Shown: positions 29,275 through 46,756, numbered from the stretch's first letter. The stretch: DNA of 48,116 bases from Prochloron didemni P4-Papua_New_Guinea (GCA_000252485.1 JH610585.1:1-48116); one strand, 5' to 3'. Translations and numbers: made by a program. Notes: generated by a model from the letters alone, not told the origin.

Positions 29275-31386
29275 ATGATAGGAATAGAACCTTTTTTAAT
29301 TCCAGGAGCGAAAATTCTTTGGGAGCTTACTGAATCCCTTGGTGAGAAACGTTTACAATCAATTGCCAACGAGATAGAAGCTAAAAAAGCATTAAAGACA
29401 TATTTTGATAAATATAAGAGTAGATATGGTTCATTAAAACTGTTGGCCATGCCTCAATCGGTGGATTTGGAATCTGTTTATACTCCCGTTCGATTTTTAG
29501 ATAGATTAACTATTGGTAGTTTTCAATCTCTTCCAGATTTGGTGGAAGCTTACCGAGACAGTGCAAGGCGCAGATTTCAAAGAGAAAAATCAGATAATCG
29601 GGATGGCATTGAAGTAGCGAAGGAAAATCAATATTTAATGGTATTGGGGGGACCGGGAACGGGAAAATCCACTTTTCTCCGTCGTGTAGGTTTGGAAGCT
29701 TTTAAAGGAAAAGATGGTCAATATGAACATGACTGTCTTCCCGTTCTCTTGGAGTTGAAACGTTTTCAAAGTGACGAAAATAACAAGATAAATCTAATCA
29801 AAGCGATTACAGAAGAGTTTCACAATTTTGGCTTTCCTCTTTCAGAAGAATTTACCATCAAAGCTCTAGAAGAGGGAAAACTGCTGCTATTGCTAGATGG
29901 ACTGGATGAAGTACCGAAAATTAATTTAGCTAAAGTAATTGATGGGATTGAGAGTTTGGTCACCAGATACGAGAACAATCGCTTTATTGCTTCTTGTCGC
30001 ATTGCCGCTTATCGGAGTTTGAACCAGTTCCGGGATATCCAACTGGCAGATTTTGAGGACGACCAGATTCAACAGTTTATTAATAACTGGTTTCAATCGG
30101 ATTTGGATAAAGAATGGGATACTGCCGCTAAATGTTGGTCAACTTTGAATGAAGAAAGGAATATATCGGCGAAGGAGTTAGCTCAAACTCCCTTGTTATT
30201 AACCTTTCTCTGTTTGGTTTACGGCGAATATCTCCGCTTTCCCGTTCAACGAAGCCAGTTGTATCAAAAAGCTTTAGATATTTTATTGGAAAAATGGGCG
30301 GCGGAAAAAAGGGTGGAATATGGGGAAATTTGCCCGGGGTTAAATGTAGAAGTGGAGAAAGTGTTGCTTTCCCAAATCGCTTACGATAGTTTTGCTACGG
30401 ATCAACTCTTTTTTCCCCAGGATGAGTTGCTGAAGAGAATCAAAGATTTTTTGCAAGATACGGCGGACAAGCCGAAATATTTCGATGGCAAAGCGGTTTT
30501 GGAGGCCATCGCCATTCAACAAGGAATTTTGGTGGAACGAGCGGAAGGAATTTACTCTTTTTCCCATCTCACTTTGCAGGAATATTTAACTGCTCTCTTG
30601 ATTAAGGAAGAAGATAAGGAAGATAAGTTAGAAGAGTTGGTTCACCAACATCTTACTGATGAGCGTTGGCAAGAGGTGTTTTTATTAGTAGCTGGTTTGA
30701 AGAGTAGTGCCGATAGATTATTAGAGTTAATGGAAGTGGGAGCTAGAAAGTTAATTGATAGTCCTAAATTGAAGGAATTATTACTCTGGGCGGAAGAAGC
30801 TACTGCTGGGTCGGAAGGAGATATTTCTCCTGCTGGGAAAAGGGTGATCGCGATCGCCTACGCCAACGCCAACGCCTACGCCCTCGCCAAAGCCTTCGCT
30901 AACGCCTACGCCCTCGCCTACGCCTACGCCAACGTCTACGCCTACGCTCTCGCCAAAGCCTACGCCAACGCCAAAGCCTACGCCCTCGCCAACGCCTACG
31001 CCCTTGCCTACGCCAACGCCAAGGCCCTCACCAACGCCAAGGCCCTCGATCAATTTATAGAACTTGCTGGAGACTTAGAAAAGTTAAAAATTTTCTCACA
31101 AGTAAATTTTACCCAATTGACTGGAAATTTGCAAGCACTTCAAGCCAAAATACCCGAGGATTCCTCTACTGAAAAAGTACATCGAGAGTTTTTCTTCCTG
31201 ATTGTGAATACTTGGCTTGAAGCTTTACATTTCAACCCAGAACAGGTCACTTTATCCGAGGAAGAATTAACAGCATGGCGAAAATACTTCTACGTCAACA
31301 AACTCATAGTAGATTGTAAAGAAGCAGCAGTACGAGTATCCCGCAGTACCTGGTGGTCAATGGAACAAAAAATGCTCCGAGTATAG
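29275..31386 (+). CDS. NACHT-domain STAND NTPase with Ala-X dipeptide repeat tract
   Basis: A 703-aa NACHT NTPase. N-terminal ~115 residues are helical ([32 protein letters not shown]) as in other cyanobacterial NACHT proteins. The NTPase follows: Walker [10 protein letters not shown] (about 125-133), Walker [12 protein letters not shown] (203-213), sensor-type [10 protein letters not shown], and the winged-helix part ([37 protein letters not shown]). Residues about 523-595 are an almost pure Ala-X alternation (X = Tyr, Asn, Leu, Lys) encoded by a GCCnnC hexamer repeat. The last ~100 residues are a helical tail. Bacterial NACHT proteins related to NLRs act in phage defence, which is the most likely role here. 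No separate effector gene is adjacent, so an effector would have to be in the chain itself. Confidence 0.92.
30852..31050 (+). repeat. In-frame hexanucleotide repeat in the NACHT gene
   Basis: About 33 units of GCC followed by TAC, AAC, CTC or AAA encode alternating Ala. The tract is far more GC-rich than the rest of the gene and is open on the minus strand as a Gly-Val-rich frame, which is an artefact. The unit is 6 nt, so gain or loss of units keeps the reading frame. Confidence 0.92.
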
Positions 31387-39649: not shown

Positions 39650-40537
39650 CTATTTCTTATCTAGCCAAGCAATTAAATCTTCACTTGTAGTGAAATCAAA
39701 TTGTGCCTCCGTTAATTCTTCTAACTGGGAAATGGATAAAGAACGAATTTTTTGCTCTACAGTAGGGTCGATAGTAGCAAAGCGTCGAGATAATAAGCGA
39801 ATTAATACAGAGGCCGTTCCAAGTTGTTCTCCTTGCTGCAAACCTTGTTGTAAACCTTGCTGCAAACCTTGCTGCAAACCTCTTTGTTCTCCTTGAGTAA
39901 TTCCCTTTTGCAGGATATCTTGATAAATAACCGAACCTTCCATTAGTTCCTCCCGAAATAGTTGACGAATTACATCTTTTTCAAATCGCAAACCTGCTAG
40001 CACTTCTGCTGCAGCGGAGATACTTCTTTTCTGCTGGGTATCTTCTAGTTTAGCTACTTCTTGTGTTACTTGCTCCAACAAAATTTTCGGTTCGTTACTG
40101 CGGGTTAAAGTAGCTAGAGGTAGCAAGGCTGGGTCAGCAAGAAAAGGAGCCGGGTCTTCTTCCCAGAGACGGATAACCCGATAAGAATGGCTGGTATTTT
40201 GCTCTGAAAATTTATTTTGGAAAACTTGTTCGGAGCTAGTTTCTTGTAAGAAAATCACAATTTGGTCGATTTCACACCAATATTGTCCGTACAGTAGAGT
40301 CCAGTATTTGAGCATTCGATAGGGAATCGGTGGCTCTGAATAGGGTAGGGTTTGGAATTCTATTTGGGTGATTTTTTTGCCCGTTCGTACAAGTATCAGG
40401 GCATCGGCTCTGATGGGTTCCGGAATTATTTCTGTCTTTAAGATGGAGACATTTTCTGGTTCTTCGTCCAGCAGCCAGCGAATAAAACTGGTTGCGTAGG
40501 TTTCCGCCAGGTATTTACAGGTGTTGTCGTAAGCCAA
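39650..40537 (-). CDS. Rpn-like PD-(D/E)XK nuclease with C-terminal DUF4351 module (full-length copy A)
   Basis: A 295-aa DUF2887/Rpn-type protein. The nuclease-like part (1-198) starts LAYDNTCKYLAETYATSFIRWLLDEE and has a PD-(D/E)XK-type site: Asp in RADALILV (about 45) and Glu-x-Gln in IEFQT (60-62). From Met199 the C-terminal module follows: MEGSVIYQDILQKGITQGEQRG, four LQQG repeats, EQLGTASVL, and the DUF4351 end (IRLLSRRFATIDPTVEQKIRSL). I start at the TTG codon used by the sister copy (42633); the frame opens further to 40744 through unrelated palindromic DNA. The codons before Met199 form GGGAGG with 5-nt spacing, a built-in ribosome site (39954-39949) for separate production of the C-terminal module. 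Last gene of the minus-strand block. Confidence 0.88.
   Translation of the reverse strand: MAYDNTCKYLAETYATSFIRWLLDEEPENVSILKTEIIPEPIRADALILVRTGKKITQIEFQTLPYSEPPIPYRMLKYWTLLYGQYWCEIDQIVIFLQETSSEQVFQNKFSEQNTSHSYRVIRLWEEDPAPFLADPALLPLATLTRSNEPKILLEQVTQEVAKLEDTQQKRSISAAAEVLAGLRFEKDVIRQLFREELMEGSVIYQDILQKGITQGEQRGLQQGLQQGLQQGLQQGEQLGTASVLIRLLSRRFATIDPTVEQKIRSLSISQLEELTEAQFDFTTSEDLIAWLDKK
39943..39954 (-). promoter_or_regulatory. Internal Shine-Dalgarno and start in copy A
   Basis: Inside the full-length gene the minus-strand sequence is GGGAGGAACTAATG: the codons for Arg-Glu-Glu-Leu-Met. GGGAGG is 5 nt before an in-frame ATG. The five stand-alone copies begin at this same Met with the same spacing. 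The same arrangement is in the other full-length gene at about 42039-42050. Confidence 0.7.
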
Positions 40538-40564
40538 GGTTTTCGTTGTTAGTGGTTTCTTTCC

Positions 40565-40725
40565 TATCTTAGCAAGTCTGTGCGAGTTCGAGGCGATCGC
40601 CTCCAGCGGCGCTTCGCGATCAGGCGAAGCCTGCCACTGCGTGTGCTGCGGAGCAGATCGCTTCGCGAGCGCGCTTGAGCGGCGCTTCGCAGATCGCTTC
40701 GCGAGCGCCTTCCAGATTTTGGCTA
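40565..40725. repeat. GC-rich palindromic patch with GCTTCGCGAGCGC units
   Basis: Several copies of AGATCGCTTCGCGAGCGC and GGCGCTTCGC plus HIP1-type GGCGATCGCC, mutually inverted. It separates copy A from copy B. A shorter relative precedes the array at about 39570-39640 and another at 42687-42745. It is much richer in GC than the neighbouring genes and has no coding role. Confidence 0.75.
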
Positions 40726-40995
40726 CTATTTCTGATCTAGCCAAGCAATTAAATCTTCACTGGTGGTGAAATTAAATTGTGCGTCCGTTAACTCTTCTAA
40801 TTGGGAAATGGATAAAGAACGAATTTTTTCCTCTACAGTAGGGTCGATAGTAGCAAAGCGTCGAGATAACAAGCGAATTAATACCTTTGCTTCTCCTTGT
40901 TGTAAACCTTGCTGCAAACCTTGCTGTAAACCTCTTTGTTCTCCTTGAGTAATTCCCTTTTGCAGGATATCTTGATAAATAACCGAACCTTCCAT
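40726..40995 (-). CDS. Stand-alone DUF4351 module (copy B), RpnS-like
   Basis: An 89-aa protein identical in plan to the last part of the full-length nuclease: MEGSVIYQDILQKGITQGEQRG, three LQQG repeats, EAKVLIRLLSRRFATIDPTVEEKIRSL, ISQLEELTDAQFNFTTSEDLIAWLDQK. AGGAGG lies 5 nt before the ATG. The upstream nuclease part is absent and replaced by a short spacer (about 66 nt to copy C). By analogy with RpnS proteins it could bind and block the full-length protein; not shown here. Confidence 0.75.
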   Translation of the reverse strand: MEGSVIYQDILQKGITQGEQRGLQQGLQQGLQQGEAKVLIRLLSRRFATIDPTVEEKIRSLSISQLEELTDAQFNFTTSEDLIAWLDQK

Positions 40996-41061
40996 CAGTT
41001 CCTCCTCTTATCTTAGCAAGTCTGGGCGATCTAAAAGAGATCGCCTTCCAGATTTTGGCTA

Positions 41062-41367
41062 CTATTTCTTATCTAGCCAAGCAATTAAATCTTCACTTGT
41101 AGTGAAATTAAATTGTGCCTCCGTTAATTCTTCTAACTGGGAAATGGATAAAGAACGAATTTTTTCCTCTACAGTAGGGGCGATGGTAGCAAAGCGTCGA
41201 GATAATAAGCGAATTAATACATTTGCTTCTCCTTGTTGTAAACCTCTTTGTTCTCCTTGCTGTAAACCTTGCTGTAAACCTTGCTGTAAACCTTGTTGTA
41301 AACCTCTTTGTTCTCCTTGAGTAATTCCCTTTTGCAGGATATCTTGATAAATAACCGAACCTTCCAT
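41062..41367 (-). CDS. Stand-alone DUF4351 module (copy C), RpnS-like
   Basis: A 101-aa copy with the longest repeat tract of the array: GEQRG, four LQQG, EQRG, one more LQQG, then EANVLIRLLSRRFATIAPTVEEKIRSL. AGGAGG with 5-nt spacing. Spacer to copy D 66 nt. Intact frame; the C-terminus ends WLDKK like the full-length proteins. Confidence 0.75.
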   Translation of the reverse strand: MEGSVIYQDILQKGITQGEQRGLQQGLQQGLQQGLQQGEQRGLQQGEANVLIRLLSRRFATIAPTVEEKIRSLSISQLEELTEAQFNFTTSEDLIAWLDKK

Positions 41368-41433
41368 CAGTTCCTCCTCTTATCTTAGCAAGTCTGGGCG
41401 ATCTAAAAGAGATCGCCTTCCAGATTTTGGCTA

Positions 41434-41703
41434 CTATTTCTTATCTAGCCAAGCAATTAAATCTTCACTGGTGGTGAAATTAAATTGTGCCTCCGTTAAT
41501 TCTTCTAACTGGGAAATGGATAAAGAACGAATTTTTTGCTCTACAGTAGGGGCGATAGTAGCAAAGCGTCGAGATAATAAGCGAATTAATACATTTGCTT
41601 CTCCTTGTTGTAAACCTCTTTGTTCTCCTTGTTGTAAACCTCTTTGTTCCCCTTGAGTAATTCCCTTTTGCAGGATATCTTGATAAATAACCGAACCTTC
41701 CAT
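41434..41703 (-). CDS. Stand-alone DUF4351 module (copy D), RpnS-like
   Basis: An 89-aa copy. Repeat tract GEQRG-LQQG-EQRG-LQQG, exactly as in the full-length copy E, then EANVLIRLLSRRFATIAPTVEQKIRSL. AGGAGG 5 nt before ATG. It lies 66 nt downstream of full-length copy E in the direction of transcription, so it is the most likely recent duplicate of that gene's end. Confidence 0.75.
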   Translation of the reverse strand: MEGSVIYQDILQKGITQGEQRGLQQGEQRGLQQGEANVLIRLLSRRFATIAPTVEQKIRSLSISQLEELTEAQFNFTTSEDLIAWLDKK

Positions 41704-41769
41704 GAGTTCCTCCTCTTATCTTAGGAAGTCTGGGCGATCTAAAAGAGATCGCCTTCCAGATTTTGGCTA

Positions 41770-42633
41770 CTATTTCTTATCTAGCCAAGCAATTAAATCT
41801 TCACTTGTAGTGAAATCAAATTGTGCCTCCGTTAACTCTTCTAATTGGGAAATGGATAAAGAGCGAATTTTTTGCTCTACAGTAGGGTCGATAGTAGCAA
41901 AGCGTCGAGATAATAAGCGAATTAATACATTTGCTTCTCCTTGTTGTAAACCTCTTTGTTCTCCTTGTTGTAAACCTCTTTGTTCCCCTTGAGTAATTCC
42001 CTTTTGCAGGATATCTTGATAAATAACCGAACCTTCCATGAGTTCCTCCCGAAATAGTTGACGAATTACATCTTTTTCAAATCGCAAACCTGCTAGCACT
42101 TCTGCTGCAGCGGAGATACTTCTTTTCTGCTGGGTATCTTCTAGTTTAGCTACTTCTTGTGTTACTTGCTCCAACAAAGTTTTCGGTTCGTTACTGCGGG
42201 TTAAAGTAGCTAGAGGTAGCAAGGCTGGGTCAGCAAGAAAAGGAGCCGGGTCTTCTTCCCAGAGACGGATAACCCGATAAGAATGGCTGGTATTTTGCTC
42301 TGAAAATTTATTTTGGAAAACTTGTTCGGAGCTAGTTTCTTGTAAGAAAATCACAATTTGGTCGATTTCACACCAATATTGTCCGTACAGTAGAGTCCAA
42401 TATTTGAGCATTCGATAGGGAATCGGTGGCTCTGAATAGGGTAGGGTTTGGAATTCTATCTGAGTGATTTTTTTGTCCGTTTTTACAAGTATCAGGGCAT
42501 CGGCTCTGATGGGTTCCGGAATTATTTCTGTCTTTAAGATGGAGACATTTTCTGGTTCTTCGTCCAGCAGCCAGCGAATAAAACTGGTTGCGTAGGTTTC
42601 AGCCAGGTATTTACAGGTGTTGTCGTAAGCCAA
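41770..42633 (-). CDS. Rpn-like PD-(D/E)XK nuclease with C-terminal DUF4351 module (full-length copy E)
   Basis: A 287-aa near-duplicate of copy A. Nuclease part (1-198): AYDNTCKYLAETYATSFIRWLL, Asp45 in IRADALILV, Glu60-x-Gln62 in QIEFQT, then YGQYWCEIDQIVIFLQETSSEQVFQ. Only a few residues differ from copy A (for example VKTDKK against VRTGKK, and TLLEQ against ILLEQ). The C-terminal module from Met199 has repeat tract LQQG-EQRG-LQQG. Start codon TTG. The internal GGGAGG-AACTC-ATG is kept. Rpn proteins of E. coli are DNA nucleases toxic when unrestrained. Whether the Glu-x-Gln variant cuts DNA is unknown. Confidence 0.88.
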   Translation of the reverse strand: MAYDNTCKYLAETYATSFIRWLLDEEPENVSILKTEIIPEPIRADALILVKTDKKITQIEFQTLPYSEPPIPYRMLKYWTLLYGQYWCEIDQIVIFLQETSSEQVFQNKFSEQNTSHSYRVIRLWEEDPAPFLADPALLPLATLTRSNEPKTLLEQVTQEVAKLEDTQQKRSISAAAEVLAGLRFEKDVIRQLFREELMEGSVIYQDILQKGITQGEQRGLQQGEQRGLQQGEANVLIRLLSRRFATIDPTVEQKIRSLSISQLEELTEAQFDFTTSEDLIAWLDKK

Positions 42634-42775
42634 GATTTTCGTTGTTAGTGGTTTCTTTCCTATCTTAGCAATTCTGTGCGACTTTTAGGCGATCGCGGAG
42701 CGAGCAGACTGCGTGGGCTCTTCGCTCCTCTGAGCGCGATCGCCTTACAGGTTTTGACTAATATTTTTTATCTAG

Positions 42776-43042
42776 TCAAGCAATTAAATCTTCATTGGTG
42801 GTGAAATCAAATTGTGCCTCCGTTAATTCTTCTAATTGGGAAATGGATAAAGAACGAATTTTTTCCTCTACAGTAGGGGCGATAGTAGCAAAGCGTCGAG
42901 ATAATAAGCGAATTAATACAGAGGCCGTTCCAAGTTGTTCTCCTTGTTGTAAACCTTGCTGCAAACCTTGCTGTAAACCTCTTTGTTCTCCTTGAGTAAT
43001 TCCCTTTTGCAGGATATCTTGATAAATAACCGAACCTTCCAT
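42776..43042 (-). CDS. Stand-alone DUF4351 module (copy F), RpnS-like, slightly truncated
   Basis: An 88-aa copy with three LQQG repeats and the EQLGTASVL variant. It ends FTTNEDLIA because the conserved Trp codon (TGG) is TGA here, removing the last five residues (WLDKK). The upstream site reads GAGGAGGGACTA before ATG, again AGGAGG-like. Probably functional apart from the short tail, or an early step of decay. Confidence 0.7.
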   Translation of the reverse strand: MEGSVIYQDILQKGITQGEQRGLQQGLQQGLQQGEQLGTASVLIRLLSRRFATIAPTVEEKIRSLSISQLEELTEAQFDFTTNEDLIA

Positions 43043-43108
43043 TAGTCCCTCCTCTTATCTTAGCAAGTCTGGGCGATCTAAAAGAGATCGCCTTCCAGAT
43101 TTTGGCTA

Positions 43109-43390
43109 CTATTTCTTATTCAACCAAGCAATTAAATCTTCACTTGTGGTGAAATCAAATTGTGCCTCCGTTAATTCTTCTAATTGGGAAATGGATAAAG
43201 AACGAATTTTTTCCTCTACAGTAGGGGCGATAGTAGCAAAGCGTCGAGATAATAAGCGAATTAATACAGAGGCCGTTCCAAGTTGTTCTCCTTGTTGTAA
43301 ACCTTGCTGCAAACCTTGCTGTAAACCTCTTTGTTCTCCTTGAGTAATTCCCTTTTGCAGGATATCTTGATAAATAACCGAACCTTCCAT
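43109..43390 (-). CDS. Stand-alone DUF4351 module (copy G), RpnS-like
   Basis: A 93-aa copy with three LQQG repeats and EQLGTASVL, ending FTTSEDLIAWLNKK. The ATG at 43390 has AGGAGG 5 nt upstream. The frame can be read 11 codons further back to a GTG (SYRELFQEEL), clearly a leftover of the nuclease part (QLFREEL), which shows that this unit derived from a full-length gene by deletion. It starts 45 nt after the stop of the 446-aa gene, linking the array to the helicase block. Confidence 0.75.
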   Translation of the reverse strand: MEGSVIYQDILQKGITQGEQRGLQQGLQQGLQQGEQLGTASVLIRLLSRRFATIAPTVEEKIRSLSISQLEELTEAQFDFTTSEDLIAWLNKK

Positions 43391-43435: not shown

Positions 43436-44776
43436 CTAATCAACCTGGACGTTTTTAGTTTTAACTGGAATATACAGTGAAAAACGTCCTTCTTTTTCAT
43501 TGCTTTTTTGCCAGCTAATTCCCTCTGGATCTCTTTTTTTAGACCATTCAGAAAAATTGTTTTTGTATTTGCTTGCAGCAGATATAAATGTTTTTTTCTT
43601 CATCCCAAATCTTGTGGCAAGTTCAGATGAAGTTAAGCGCAGATCCTCAAAAGTAGATACATCCTCTGGTTGTTGCATTTCCTCTGCGGAGGATACCAAC
43701 GAGTAAGAAGGCGTAGCTGTGGGTCCGTACTCATTCGTAGATTCAGAATTTTCTTGAGAATTCTGATTATCTTTCTCTAGAGGTGTAGGATCAACTTGGG
43801 GTTCTTGGCTCAAATCCGATTCAGTTGTATTGTCGGGCTGTAGCATATTGCCATTTTGGTTCGGCTGAACAGGAATAACCTCTTTCGGTCGTTCCGTTTT
43901 GTTTGGCTCGATAGATAGTTGGTTTAAATCCACCAGTCCTTGCTGCAAGTAATCAATTAAGGTATCCAGTTCTTCCCCCTTGTAGAACTGAAGCAGTTTC
44001 TCTGCTGCTTTCTTGGGGTTATCCATTCTGACCTGTTTGGAACGGTCTTTTATCTCCAACAAATTTTTAACGTAATCATTGAGTTCTCGGCTGTAAGTAG
44101 ATTCTTTGTACTCATCTTCCGGAATTGGGTTAGTATCAATGTACTGACTTATCCGCAGCCCAATTAAATCTCGATTTTCAATGTACTCCCGCTCTTCAGC
44201 CGTTAGGTTGTCTGGATCTTTGATACTCCGTCCTAATTTGGCAGCAATATCTATGGCAATTAACTCTTTGTTGAGTAACTCATCAATAACCGGAATAGCT
44301 TGGGCTGCACGCTTGGCAGCACAAATCAGATCTGTTCGTATTCCCTGACGAGATTCGTCGATAAGCGTCCGAAAGAGGCGTTGAACTTCCGGGTCTGAGC
44401 TAAGAAGATTATCTACAGTTTCTATATCCGTTGCCAAACCATTGGGACGTTTAGCTGTAATGAAAGCCCGAAAATTCTCCGAATTAGTGCCTTTGGTATA
44501 ACGACAGTAGTAAGGGGTTACCACTCCCTTACCTACATAGAAACATTCCCAAGCTTTGTTCTCAATAATTTCCTTAATGTATTGAGGAATTTTCAGGACA
44601 AAAGCGAAATCTTTGGCAATACCAGAAGCAATACTGTCAGATAGCAAAAAGGCTTTAGCTGCTTTGTCATGTTCATTTTCTGGAAGTCGATCTTCTTCAG
44701 AAACAACTTTTTCAATGACAGCTAAATCTGGTAGATTAGATTGACTTGGAGCGATTGTATTAAATTCATTATTCAT
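43436..44776 (-). CDS. Uncharacterised 446-aa protein coupled to the helicase
   Basis: I do not recognise the family. N-terminal region (about 1-75) is acidic; a middle region (DSIASGIAKDFAFVLKIPQYIKEIIENKAWECFYVGKGVVTPYYCRYTKGT, then FRAFITAKRPNGLATDIETVDNLLSSDPEVQRLF) looks globular. About residues 290-370 are a disordered Asn/Gln/Pro/Ser linker. The C-terminal ~70 residues look like a helix-turn-helix domain (LTSSELATRFGMKKKTFISAASKYKNNFSEWSKKRDPEGISW). I use the ATG with GGAGG 9 nt upstream, which is 1 nt after the helicase stop; an earlier Met overlaps the helicase. The arrangement suggests that the two act together, perhaps with this protein giving target recognition. Confidence 0.8.
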   Translation of the reverse strand: MNNEFNTIAPSQSNLPDLAVIEKVVSEEDRLPENEHDKAAKAFLLSDSIASGIAKDFAFVLKIPQYIKEIIENKAWECFYVGKGVVTPYYCRYTKGTNSENFRAFITAKRPNGLATDIETVDNLLSSDPEVQRLFRTLIDESRQGIRTDLICAAKRAAQAIPVIDELLNKELIAIDIAAKLGRSIKDPDNLTAEEREYIENRDLIGLRISQYIDTNPIPEDEYKESTYSRELNDYVKNLLEIKDRSKQVRMDNPKKAAEKLLQFYKGEELDTLIDYLQQGLVDLNQLSIEPNKTERPKEVIPVQPNQNGNMLQPDNTTESDLSQEPQVDPTPLEKDNQNSQENSESTNEYGPTATPSYSLVSSAEEMQQPEDVSTFEDLRLTSSELATRFGMKKKTFISAASKYKNNFSEWSKKRDPEGISWQKSNEKEGRFSLYIPVKTKNVQVD

Positions 44777-44777
44777 C

Positions 44778-46703
44778 TTAGATTTCCTCCGTTCTTTTTC
44801 CTGTTTCACTAGCGGCAATACGTTCTAGCAACCATCGATAAATAGATTCCCAACCTTGATAACCGATATAGTCTTTACTAGAGAATCCATGTTTTGATTT
44901 AGCGCAATTATGAATTTCTTTGAGATGTTTTTTTCTTTCGTCGTCGCTGTCATTGGGATATAAAAGATAAGCTAATTGATTAACTTTTTTGTGCACCTTT
45001 TTCCTGGCATACTTTGCTTTTTCATCAGATAGCATGGTAGCATATTCCGAGGGAAATCCTAGTGGAATTTCTTCATTGGGAACCGGTTCTAAGGAAGGTT
45101 CTGAATTAATAGCTTCTCGATATTTTTCATGATAGAACTCGAAGAGATCGGGATCGTTCATAAGCTTGTGTGCTAAATGCGCTGGTGTTTTATGCCAGTC
45201 TCGAAAAAAGTCATTGTTCTCAACAAGCCATTCAGCAACTTTAGTGTATTCCGGCGAAATTTCCTCTCCATCAACAATTTGCGCTCCCATTTCTCCGGTT
45301 GAAGCAAGAGGAATAAAATTAGATAACGAGGAAGAGTTTGGCTTTTCATCCTCATTAGATTCTACCACCTTCTGATCATCATTTGGTGTTTTTGGCTCGT
45401 TAATTACATGCGCCACCTCATCAAGGACATCTATTGCTAATTGAATGAGTGTGGGATGAGCGGGAATTAGGGTTTCGACGGATTCAGGAGAATCTTGAGC
45501 GGGGAAAAGACGTAATAAACGCCCTAAATCTTGCATGAACGATAAAGGAGCGCAAACATTGGTGGCGTGAATTCGATATTTGAGACGGTTGATTGAAATA
45601 CCTTCCCCCAGCATATTCACCCCAATAATCCAAGAACGGGCTCCAATTCCTGTTTCCGCTGCAAACTCTTCGATAAGTCGGCTTGAATCTTCTTTTAATT
45701 TGAAATTAGCACTGAAGTTAGAGTCATCGTCCTCTTTGGATACTACAATCAGCGCTTCCTCCCCCGTAAGACTTTTGATGCGCTTTTTCATTTCTTTTGC
45801 CGCTGAAATCTTGGGAACTCTGACGTAAGTAGCAGATTCGGCAAGTCCCTTAGCACGATCGCGTTTCATCCGCTTGTGCGCCCATAAAATAGCTTCTTTG
45901 ACCCAATCACCATCTACAAAAATGGCGGTATTTAGTGCATCTCTTAATTTTTGTTCCGTTGTAGCGCTAGTAAACTTTTGCCCTTCATATTTAGCTTTAT
46001 TGCGGATATATTTAAATTCTCCTTCTAAACTGACAAACGAAAAAGAAGGAATAATTTCATCTCGTAACGCATCGGCTAGAGTGTAGCGAAAATTAGGAAC
46101 GCATTTGTAAGTATTTTCATCAACTGGTTCGTAAATTAACCAATTGCCTAGAATTCTGTTTTTGTCAGAACGGAAAGGAGTTCCAGAAGTCATTAGACGG
46201 TGAGATACCACCGAATCTGGGAAAGCTATCTTGCAGGCTTGTCCAAATGAAAGTTCGTGACTGGCATGATGAACTTCATCCAAAATTAGGAAAACTTTAC
46301 CTGCAAAGCTTTTTTCTAGATCTTTTGCTAAATTTGGAGCATTTTGGGGTTTGGTCAACCATTGATAGCTAACCACCAAGCCTTGATAATACTGGTCTAA
46401 GAGTTGCTGGGGGTTTGGCAATCCTCCCAATCTATTATCAGTTCCCGAATAATAGAGATTTAAATCAAAAAGTTCACGAGCATCTCGAGCGTACTGTTTT
46501 CTGAGATGTTCTGATGGAGTCACCACAACAACAAATTTCCAATCTAGGATTGTTTGCAATGAAACGAAAACCAACAACGATCCACCTGTTTTTCCCGCTG
46601 ATGTACAGGCTTCAAGCAAAAAGTTTTTCTTTTTGAGGGAGTCTGTCTGGTACTGTCGGACAAATCGTTCTTGCCAGTCTCTGGGCTGGAATCTATTGCT
46701 CAT
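44778..46703 (-). CDS. DEAD/DEAH-type superfamily 2 helicase
   Basis: A 641-aa SF2 helicase of the type III-restriction/UvrB-like ResIII group. Motif Q region FQPRDWQERFVRQY, Walker A variant EACTSAGKTGGSL (SAGKT), motif Ia VVVVTPSEHLRKQYARD, motif II LILDEVHHASHE (DEVH), motif III MTSGTPFRSD, motif V-like IIGVNMLGEGISI and motif VI MQDLGRLLRLF. The C-terminal ~220 residues are a helical extension of unknown type. I place the start at the second Met (46703, MSNRFQPRDWQERF), preceded by AGAGG; a longer frame to 46754 runs into the divergent promoter. Such helicases are frequent in restriction and defence operons. No methylase or nuclease is directly fused. Confidence 0.9.
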   Translation of the reverse strand: MSNRFQPRDWQERFVRQYQTDSLKKKNFLLEACTSAGKTGGSLLVFVSLQTILDWKFVVVVTPSEHLRKQYARDARELFDLNLYYSGTDNRLGGLPNPQQLLDQYYQGLVVSYQWLTKPQNAPNLAKDLEKSFAGKVFLILDEVHHASHELSFGQACKIAFPDSVVSHRLMTSGTPFRSDKNRILGNWLIYEPVDENTYKCVPNFRYTLADALRDEIIPSFSFVSLEGEFKYIRNKAKYEGQKFTSATTEQKLRDALNTAIFVDGDWVKEAILWAHKRMKRDRAKGLAESATYVRVPKISAAKEMKKRIKSLTGEEALIVVSKEDDDSNFSANFKLKEDSSRLIEEFAAETGIGARSWIIGVNMLGEGISINRLKYRIHATNVCAPLSFMQDLGRLLRLFPAQDSPESVETLIPAHPTLIQLAIDVLDEVAHVINEPKTPNDDQKVVESNEDEKPNSSSLSNFIPLASTGEMGAQIVDGEEISPEYTKVAEWLVENNDFFRDWHKTPAHLAHKLMNDPDLFEFYHEKYREAINSEPSLEPVPNEEIPLGFPSEYATMLSDEKAKYARKKVHKKVNQLAYLLYPNDSDDERKKHLKEIHNCAKSKHGFSSKDYIGYQGWESIYRWLLERIAASETGKRTEEI

Positions 46704-46756
46704 AGAGAATACCTCTCTGCTAAAATGGCGATACGTAGCTCCGAAGGAACTCAAAC

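Follow-up and report, generated by a model that had tools for sequence, protein, structure and literature searches.

A 48,116-nt stretch of DNA from Prochloron didemni P4-Papua_New_Guinea (hereafter the window) carries an Rpn-like system that is well supported and unusual in its array of five free-standing copies. Seven copies of one DUF4351 module of ~90 amino acids lie on the minus strand; in two of the seven (FL1 and FL2) it is joined to an Rpn-like domain of PD-(D/E)XK type, and five are free-standing (S1 to S5). The gene-within-gene antitoxins of E. coli Rpn proteins, with their variable repeats and protection against phages, were described by Zhong et al. (2023; PMC10327210), and the discoverers of Rpn describe it as the first characterised example of a toxin gene that contains the gene for its own antitoxin (PMC10327210). 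A simple role of the separate copies as extra antitoxin does not fit well, either in the window or in E. coli. The array comprises the following features.

39650..40537, minus strand: FL1, full-length gene for an Rpn-like nuclease (295 aa, TTG start); N-domain carrying a D...EXQ motif, 4-aa repeats and DUF4351
39650..39943, minus strand: internal ORF of FL1, putative RpnS-like product of 97 aa; GGGAGG at 39949-39954, ATG at 39943
40538..40725, minus strand: region upstream of FL1, with the TTGCTAAGATA leader as in the short genes
40726..40995, minus strand: S1, free-standing module, 89 aa; repeat length equal to FL2
40996..41061, minus strand: spacer S2-S1, 66 bp; inverted repeat GGCGATCT-CTTTT-AGATCGCC, leader TTGCTAAGATA, AGGAGG
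41062..41367, minus strand: S2, free-standing module, 101 aa; repeat length that of FL2 plus 12 residues
41368-41433, 41704-41769 and 43043-43108, minus strand: further 66-bp spacers of the S2-S1 kind
41434..41703, minus strand: S3, free-standing module, 89 aa; same repeat block as in FL2
41770..42633, minus strand: FL2, full-length gene for an Rpn-like nuclease (287 aa, TTG start)
41770..42039, minus strand: internal ORF of FL2, putative RpnS-like product of 89 aa; GGGAGG at 42045-42050, ATG at 42039
42776..43042, minus strand: S4, free-standing module, 88 aa; early TGA, last few residues missing
43109..43390, minus strand: S5, free-standing module, 93 aa; preceded in frame by the remnant of a full-length gene, which reaches 43423

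The open reading frames, the Pfam DUF4351 matches (FL2, E 3e-20; S3, E 1.3e-19) and the DNA identity of ~95–98% in the post-repeat parts of the modules confirmed the seven minus-strand modules, two fused and five alone, that a first-pass annotation of this DNA had reported. Its common start also held: in all seven modules GGGAGG or AGGAGG ends 5 nt before the ATG (in S4, GAGGAGG is followed by GACTA), and in FL1 and FL2 the stretch from the Shine-Dalgarno sequence to the ATG lies in the coding frame and reads Arg-Glu-Glu-Leu-Met. Some details of the copies needed correction. S4 is cut by its TGA, the upstream remnant of S5 reads RELFQEEL in frame, and the repeats are mixed, comprising GEQRG and LQQG units and ending in GEQLGTAS or GEAN/GEAK. 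The four spacers are nearly identical 66-bp units; between module groups, at 40538-40725 and 42634-42757, their place is taken by palindromic GCGATCGC-rich (HIP1/STRR-like) repeats. Chance similarity and misread ORFs were ruled out by module identity, the shared spacers and the constraint described below. The assembly has 690 contigs, the array falls within a single one of them, and the copies, FL1 and FL2 included, are near-identical, so the copy number is provisional.

A simple sigma-70 promoter and terminator scan of the short genes detected none at the spacers, and promoter-like sites were fewer than in shuffled sequences. The leader common to short and full-length genes is only suggestive in this respect. 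Directly upstream of the array, a gene for a 460-aa protein without family (43436-44818, minus strand) adjoins a helicase gene (ResIII/DEAD; 44778-46754, minus strand) similar to PbeA (E 1.8e-15) and to dnd restriction-type helicases, and the two look defence-like. Further away, a NACHT-domain protein with the C-terminal helical domain NCH2 is encoded at 29275-31386 (plus strand), a possible NLR-type defence gene.

Membership of the long protein in the Rpn family is likely, though short of proven. The catalytic-type residues D45, E60 and Q62 (D45 plus an E60-F-Q62 motif) were invariant in 30 sequences, and the AlphaFold model (mean pLDDT 85) predicted a mixed core with strands flanked by helices, as expected for PD-(D/E)XK; the catalytic core that marks the Rpn family is thus seen in both the invariant residues and the predicted fold. 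PD-(D/E)XK nucleases (2vld, EcoO109I, Kpn2I, Cap4) were among the better Foldseek matches, all of which were weak, with none below E 0.001. FL2 matched the Rpn profile TIGR01784 with E 9e-10 and 38.8 bits, under the curated cut-off of 52.1, and 16 of 30 relatives matched the TIGR01784 or COG5464 profile at E<=1e-3. Relatives are annotated as Rpn family or DUF4351. PADLOC returned only a weak 'putative invertase' match.

Comparative evidence on the internal start was obtained from an alignment of 82 full-length proteins, namely FL1, FL2 and 80 from as many related cyanobacterial loci. The internal Met is invariant (82/82). Three residues ahead of this Met, the Glu codon that forms the Shine-Dalgarno sequence is GAG in 81 of 82 genes, compared with a GAG share of 31% among all Glu codons of these genes, 10% at the Glu adjacent to it and at most 66% in other conserved Glu columns; these columns are a fair control because the aligned sequences are related. 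Of 79 long forms, 42 start with TTG, 23 with GTG and 11 with ATG, and in 51 of 76 cases the anti-Shine-Dalgarno match is 3 nt or shorter; the internal start is an ATG with a 4–5 nt match in 78 of 79. Such an asymmetry is what a scarce toxin and an abundant inhibitor would need. The signal holds in most of the more distant loci, with the L156 clade lacking a recognisable internal Shine-Dalgarno sequence. An in-frame internal start with a ribosome-binding site, as in an RpnL/RpnS toxin–antitoxin pair, was thus found on purely comparative grounds. It is almost certain that a short inhibitor-like protein is also made from the full-length gene, and the Rpn-like gene-within-gene organisation proposed in the first-pass annotation is supported by the invariant Met, the GAG preference and the weak TTG/GTG starts.

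The short form is predicted to consist of one long helix with the 4-residue repeats inside, followed by three helices, which resembles the description of E. coli RpnAS (PMC10327210). RpnAS was not retrieved with the short form by profile search or by fold search. A phage origin was rejected, as no match to the short protein was found among 50,697 phage records. Repeats of four residues in variable number, early in the short protein, are a feature of RpnL/RpnS pairs and are present here. So is the free-standing RpnS arrangement, in which a separate gene beginning at the internal start lies beside the long gene (five in the window). The free-standing copies may act as antitoxins.

The layout indicates that internal deletions in full-length copies, together with tandem duplication, gave rise to the free-standing genes. 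The leader TTGCTAAGATA is common to short and full-length genes, and four short genes of the window are joined at the ribosome site itself, behind the spacers. The same genome holds a broken full-length gene with two short genes on contig C172 and a full-length gene with one short gene on contig C689. One short gene on C172 still has the full-length leader, the TTG start and, ahead of the module, 13 codons in frame; it is an intermediate of internal deletion. Genome-wide, 33 DUF4351 matches were counted; further modules lie on contigs C63 (13637-14089), C664, C437 and C424, some of them being tandem or carrying different N-terminal parts. In E. coli, ypaA starts with a copy of the rpnE internal site, both genes having the same AAAAGGAGAGATTA site before the ATG. 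In a distant genome (L156, G005:C25, 3669-4707), a full-length gene is followed by three near-identical short genes at 350-bp spacing, all one repeat longer than their full-length gene.

Differences among the copies indicate that the free-standing genes evolve under purifying selection. The short genes of the window show 8 silent and 7 replacing differences (pN/pS 0.25, P=0.008), and with those of C172 added P fell to 0.0004. Short-gene groups from Okeania, Nostoc, Dolichospermum and one further genome agree with this constraint: in five groups, pN/pS was 0.06–0.40, with the frame kept and the ribosome site usually kept. No constraint was seen in one pair of short genes (G004; pN/pS 1.12). All of these values come from simple star counts, which are somewhat non-independent. 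Release of the module as separate genes, claimed in the first-pass annotation, is not new, as it is already known (PMC10327210).

Free-standing modules outlive broken nucleases. In two Okeania loci (L011, L012) a stop lies exactly at the codon for the catalytic Glu of full-length homologs; L011 nonetheless keeps its internal module and three free-standing copies open. On C172 the nuclease part has a frame break and the modules are intact. Decay of single copies also occurs, by the premature stop in S4, loss of the ATG (L010) or of the ribosome site (L018), and in L055. The modules exchange sequence, as 18 of 21 informative site pairs failed the four-gamete test among the seven. FL1 and FL2 differ at 9 of 591 nt in the N-domain and their post-repeat proteins are also nearly identical, yet their repeat blocks differ; GEQLGTAS is common with S4 and S5, and GEAN with S2 and S3.

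Repeat length was measured against the domain profile. Lengths vary by 4-residue steps (24 of 28 neighbour differences are multiples of 4), and neighbours are mostly unequal. Among 20 cyanobacterial loci with a short copy downstream of a full-length gene, the first short copy differed from it in repeat length in 16 and equalled it in 4, the latter being about the rate of random pairs (13.6%, P=0.34). In the window, S1 and S3 have the length of FL2, none has that of FL1, and S2, S4 and S5 equal neither; S2 has no counterpart in length among the full-length genes of its module type found in the genome. S4 and S5 share their repeat length with the C689 full-length gene and the broken C172 copy, where length alone cannot prove pairing. 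The earlier ideas of "dosage" or "matching different toxins" thus find little support in these lengths.

The E. coli sample comprised 13 genomes with rpnE and ypaA, K-12 included, 12 of them readable for both copies. None of the 12 pairs matched; strains with the same combination are not independent, and seven distinct rpnE/ypaA combinations were seen (27/31, 47/31, 47/35, 59/43, 31/43, 47/27, 51/35). In K-12 (L189, 12634-13002), ypaA is one 4-residue repeat longer than the internal module of rpnE. In a single published test, a change of one repeat abolished inhibition for RpnC (PMC10327210), a mismatch rule that rests on this one experiment and leaves "dosage" weakly supported. Should it hold generally, most of the free-standing copies would fail to inhibit the neighbouring nuclease, and S1 and S3 would serve FL2. 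No statement on a repeat mismatch of free-standing RpnS was found in the main text of PMC10327210.

We consider it somewhat better than an even case that this is a cyanobacterial Rpn-type system with mini-genes born of nuclease loss, of which S1 and S3 inhibit FL2 and the others are kept for other or former repeat lengths. FL1 and FL2 would each yield a PD-(D/E)XK nuclease, made weakly from TTG, and a C-terminal repeat/DUF4351 protein, made strongly from the internal ATG. If E. coli RpnL/RpnS is a guide, the short protein would attach to its matching domain within the long protein and keep the latter inactive. Full-length copies would repeatedly have lost the nuclease domain by internal deletion, which left the leader and the internal ribosome site beside the module, and the resulting mini-genes would then have been tandemly duplicated. 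These are constrained and presumably translated, and they exchange repeat blocks with the full-length genes. S1 and S3 probably add inhibitor for FL2; S2, S4 and S5 would most likely inhibit versions with other or former repeat lengths, and would owe their retention partly to the continual change of repeat number by recombination in the array. A broader proposal, which we put forward tentatively and rather doubt, is that selection maintains the free-standing RpnS genes as a set of different repeat lengths that recombine with one another. The neighbouring nuclease could then change its repeat number with an inhibitor of the old or the new length always present. Mismatch with the neighbour would then be the normal state, also in E. 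coli.

Other explanations draw on the same data. The free-standing modules may be debris of unequal crossing-over within a gene rich in repeats, expressed without specific benefit and slowly decaying. The chance-like frequency of neighbour matches, the decaying copies (S4, L010, L018, L055), the extensive recombination and the variation of arrays among loci would all be expected of such by-products, but the low pN/pS in five groups (the G004 pair apart), the preserved frames and ribosome sites, and the modules that stay open beside broken nucleases in C172 and L011 make this unlikely, if still deserving of serious weight. Quite unlikely, in our view, is that the short genes serve mainly as donors that alter the repeat number of the nuclease by gene conversion. 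The four-gamete incompatibilities and the repeat blocks of FL1 and FL2, which differ between near-identical flanks and are each common to other modules, suit such a reservoir; recombination by itself, however, is no proof of selected diversification, and constraint on the protein sequence suggests that the products matter.

That the five copies simply raise the amount of a single antitoxin available to FL1 and FL2 appears improbable: all copies have the same start and a strong ribosome site, and S1 and S3 agree with FL2 in length (S3 also in its repeat block), but S2, S4 and S5 fit neither long gene, no readable rpnE/ypaA pair matches, and the RpnC result speaks against tolerance of a changed repeat. 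We give hardly any credence to an unused internal ATG, with Met and Glu codon reflecting protein or codon constraint in an ordinary nuclease gene accompanied by fragments. The residues around the Met are indeed strongly conserved as protein, but the GAG choice is silent and peculiar to the Shine-Dalgarno column, the short genes begin exactly at this Met, rpnE and ypaA have the same site before their ATG, and the E. coli internal starts have been shown to be used (PMC10327210).

Judging by the mismatch in repeat number, the separate copies probably do more than raise the dose. With two long genes and five short ones of at least three lengths, nearly identical in their remaining sequence, the window is a ready panel for a pairwise check of the repeat-matching rule, and mismatch together with recombination makes the array a useful test case. 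Through the silent-codon signal, the internal start is extended to a wide range of Cyanobacteria.

Free-standing RpnS genes downstream of rpn, some annotated as DUF4351, and rpn arrays made by tandem duplication have been described (PMC10327210). DUF4351 (PF14261) is a Pfam domain of unknown function, and the window modules share it as C-terminal domain with other cyanobacterial proteins; our literature search found no paper with both DUF4351 and cyanobacteria. The system of the window resembles E. coli rpnA-E in its N-terminal PD-(D/E)XK domain, its internal in-frame start with a ribosome site, its C-terminal repeat helix varying in 4-residue steps and its array of tandem duplications. It differs in its DUF4351 C-domain in place of an E. 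coli-type RpnS, in its occurrence in Cyanobacteria and in having five free-standing copies in one array. Its short genes are like the free-standing RpnES (ypaA) and the downstream RpnCS in lying beside a long gene and in having the same Met and the same ribosome site, and like ypaA they differ in repeat number from the long gene (rpnE). Whereas E. coli has one copy downstream of rpnE, in the window two long genes are accompanied by five copies, which come in at least three lengths.
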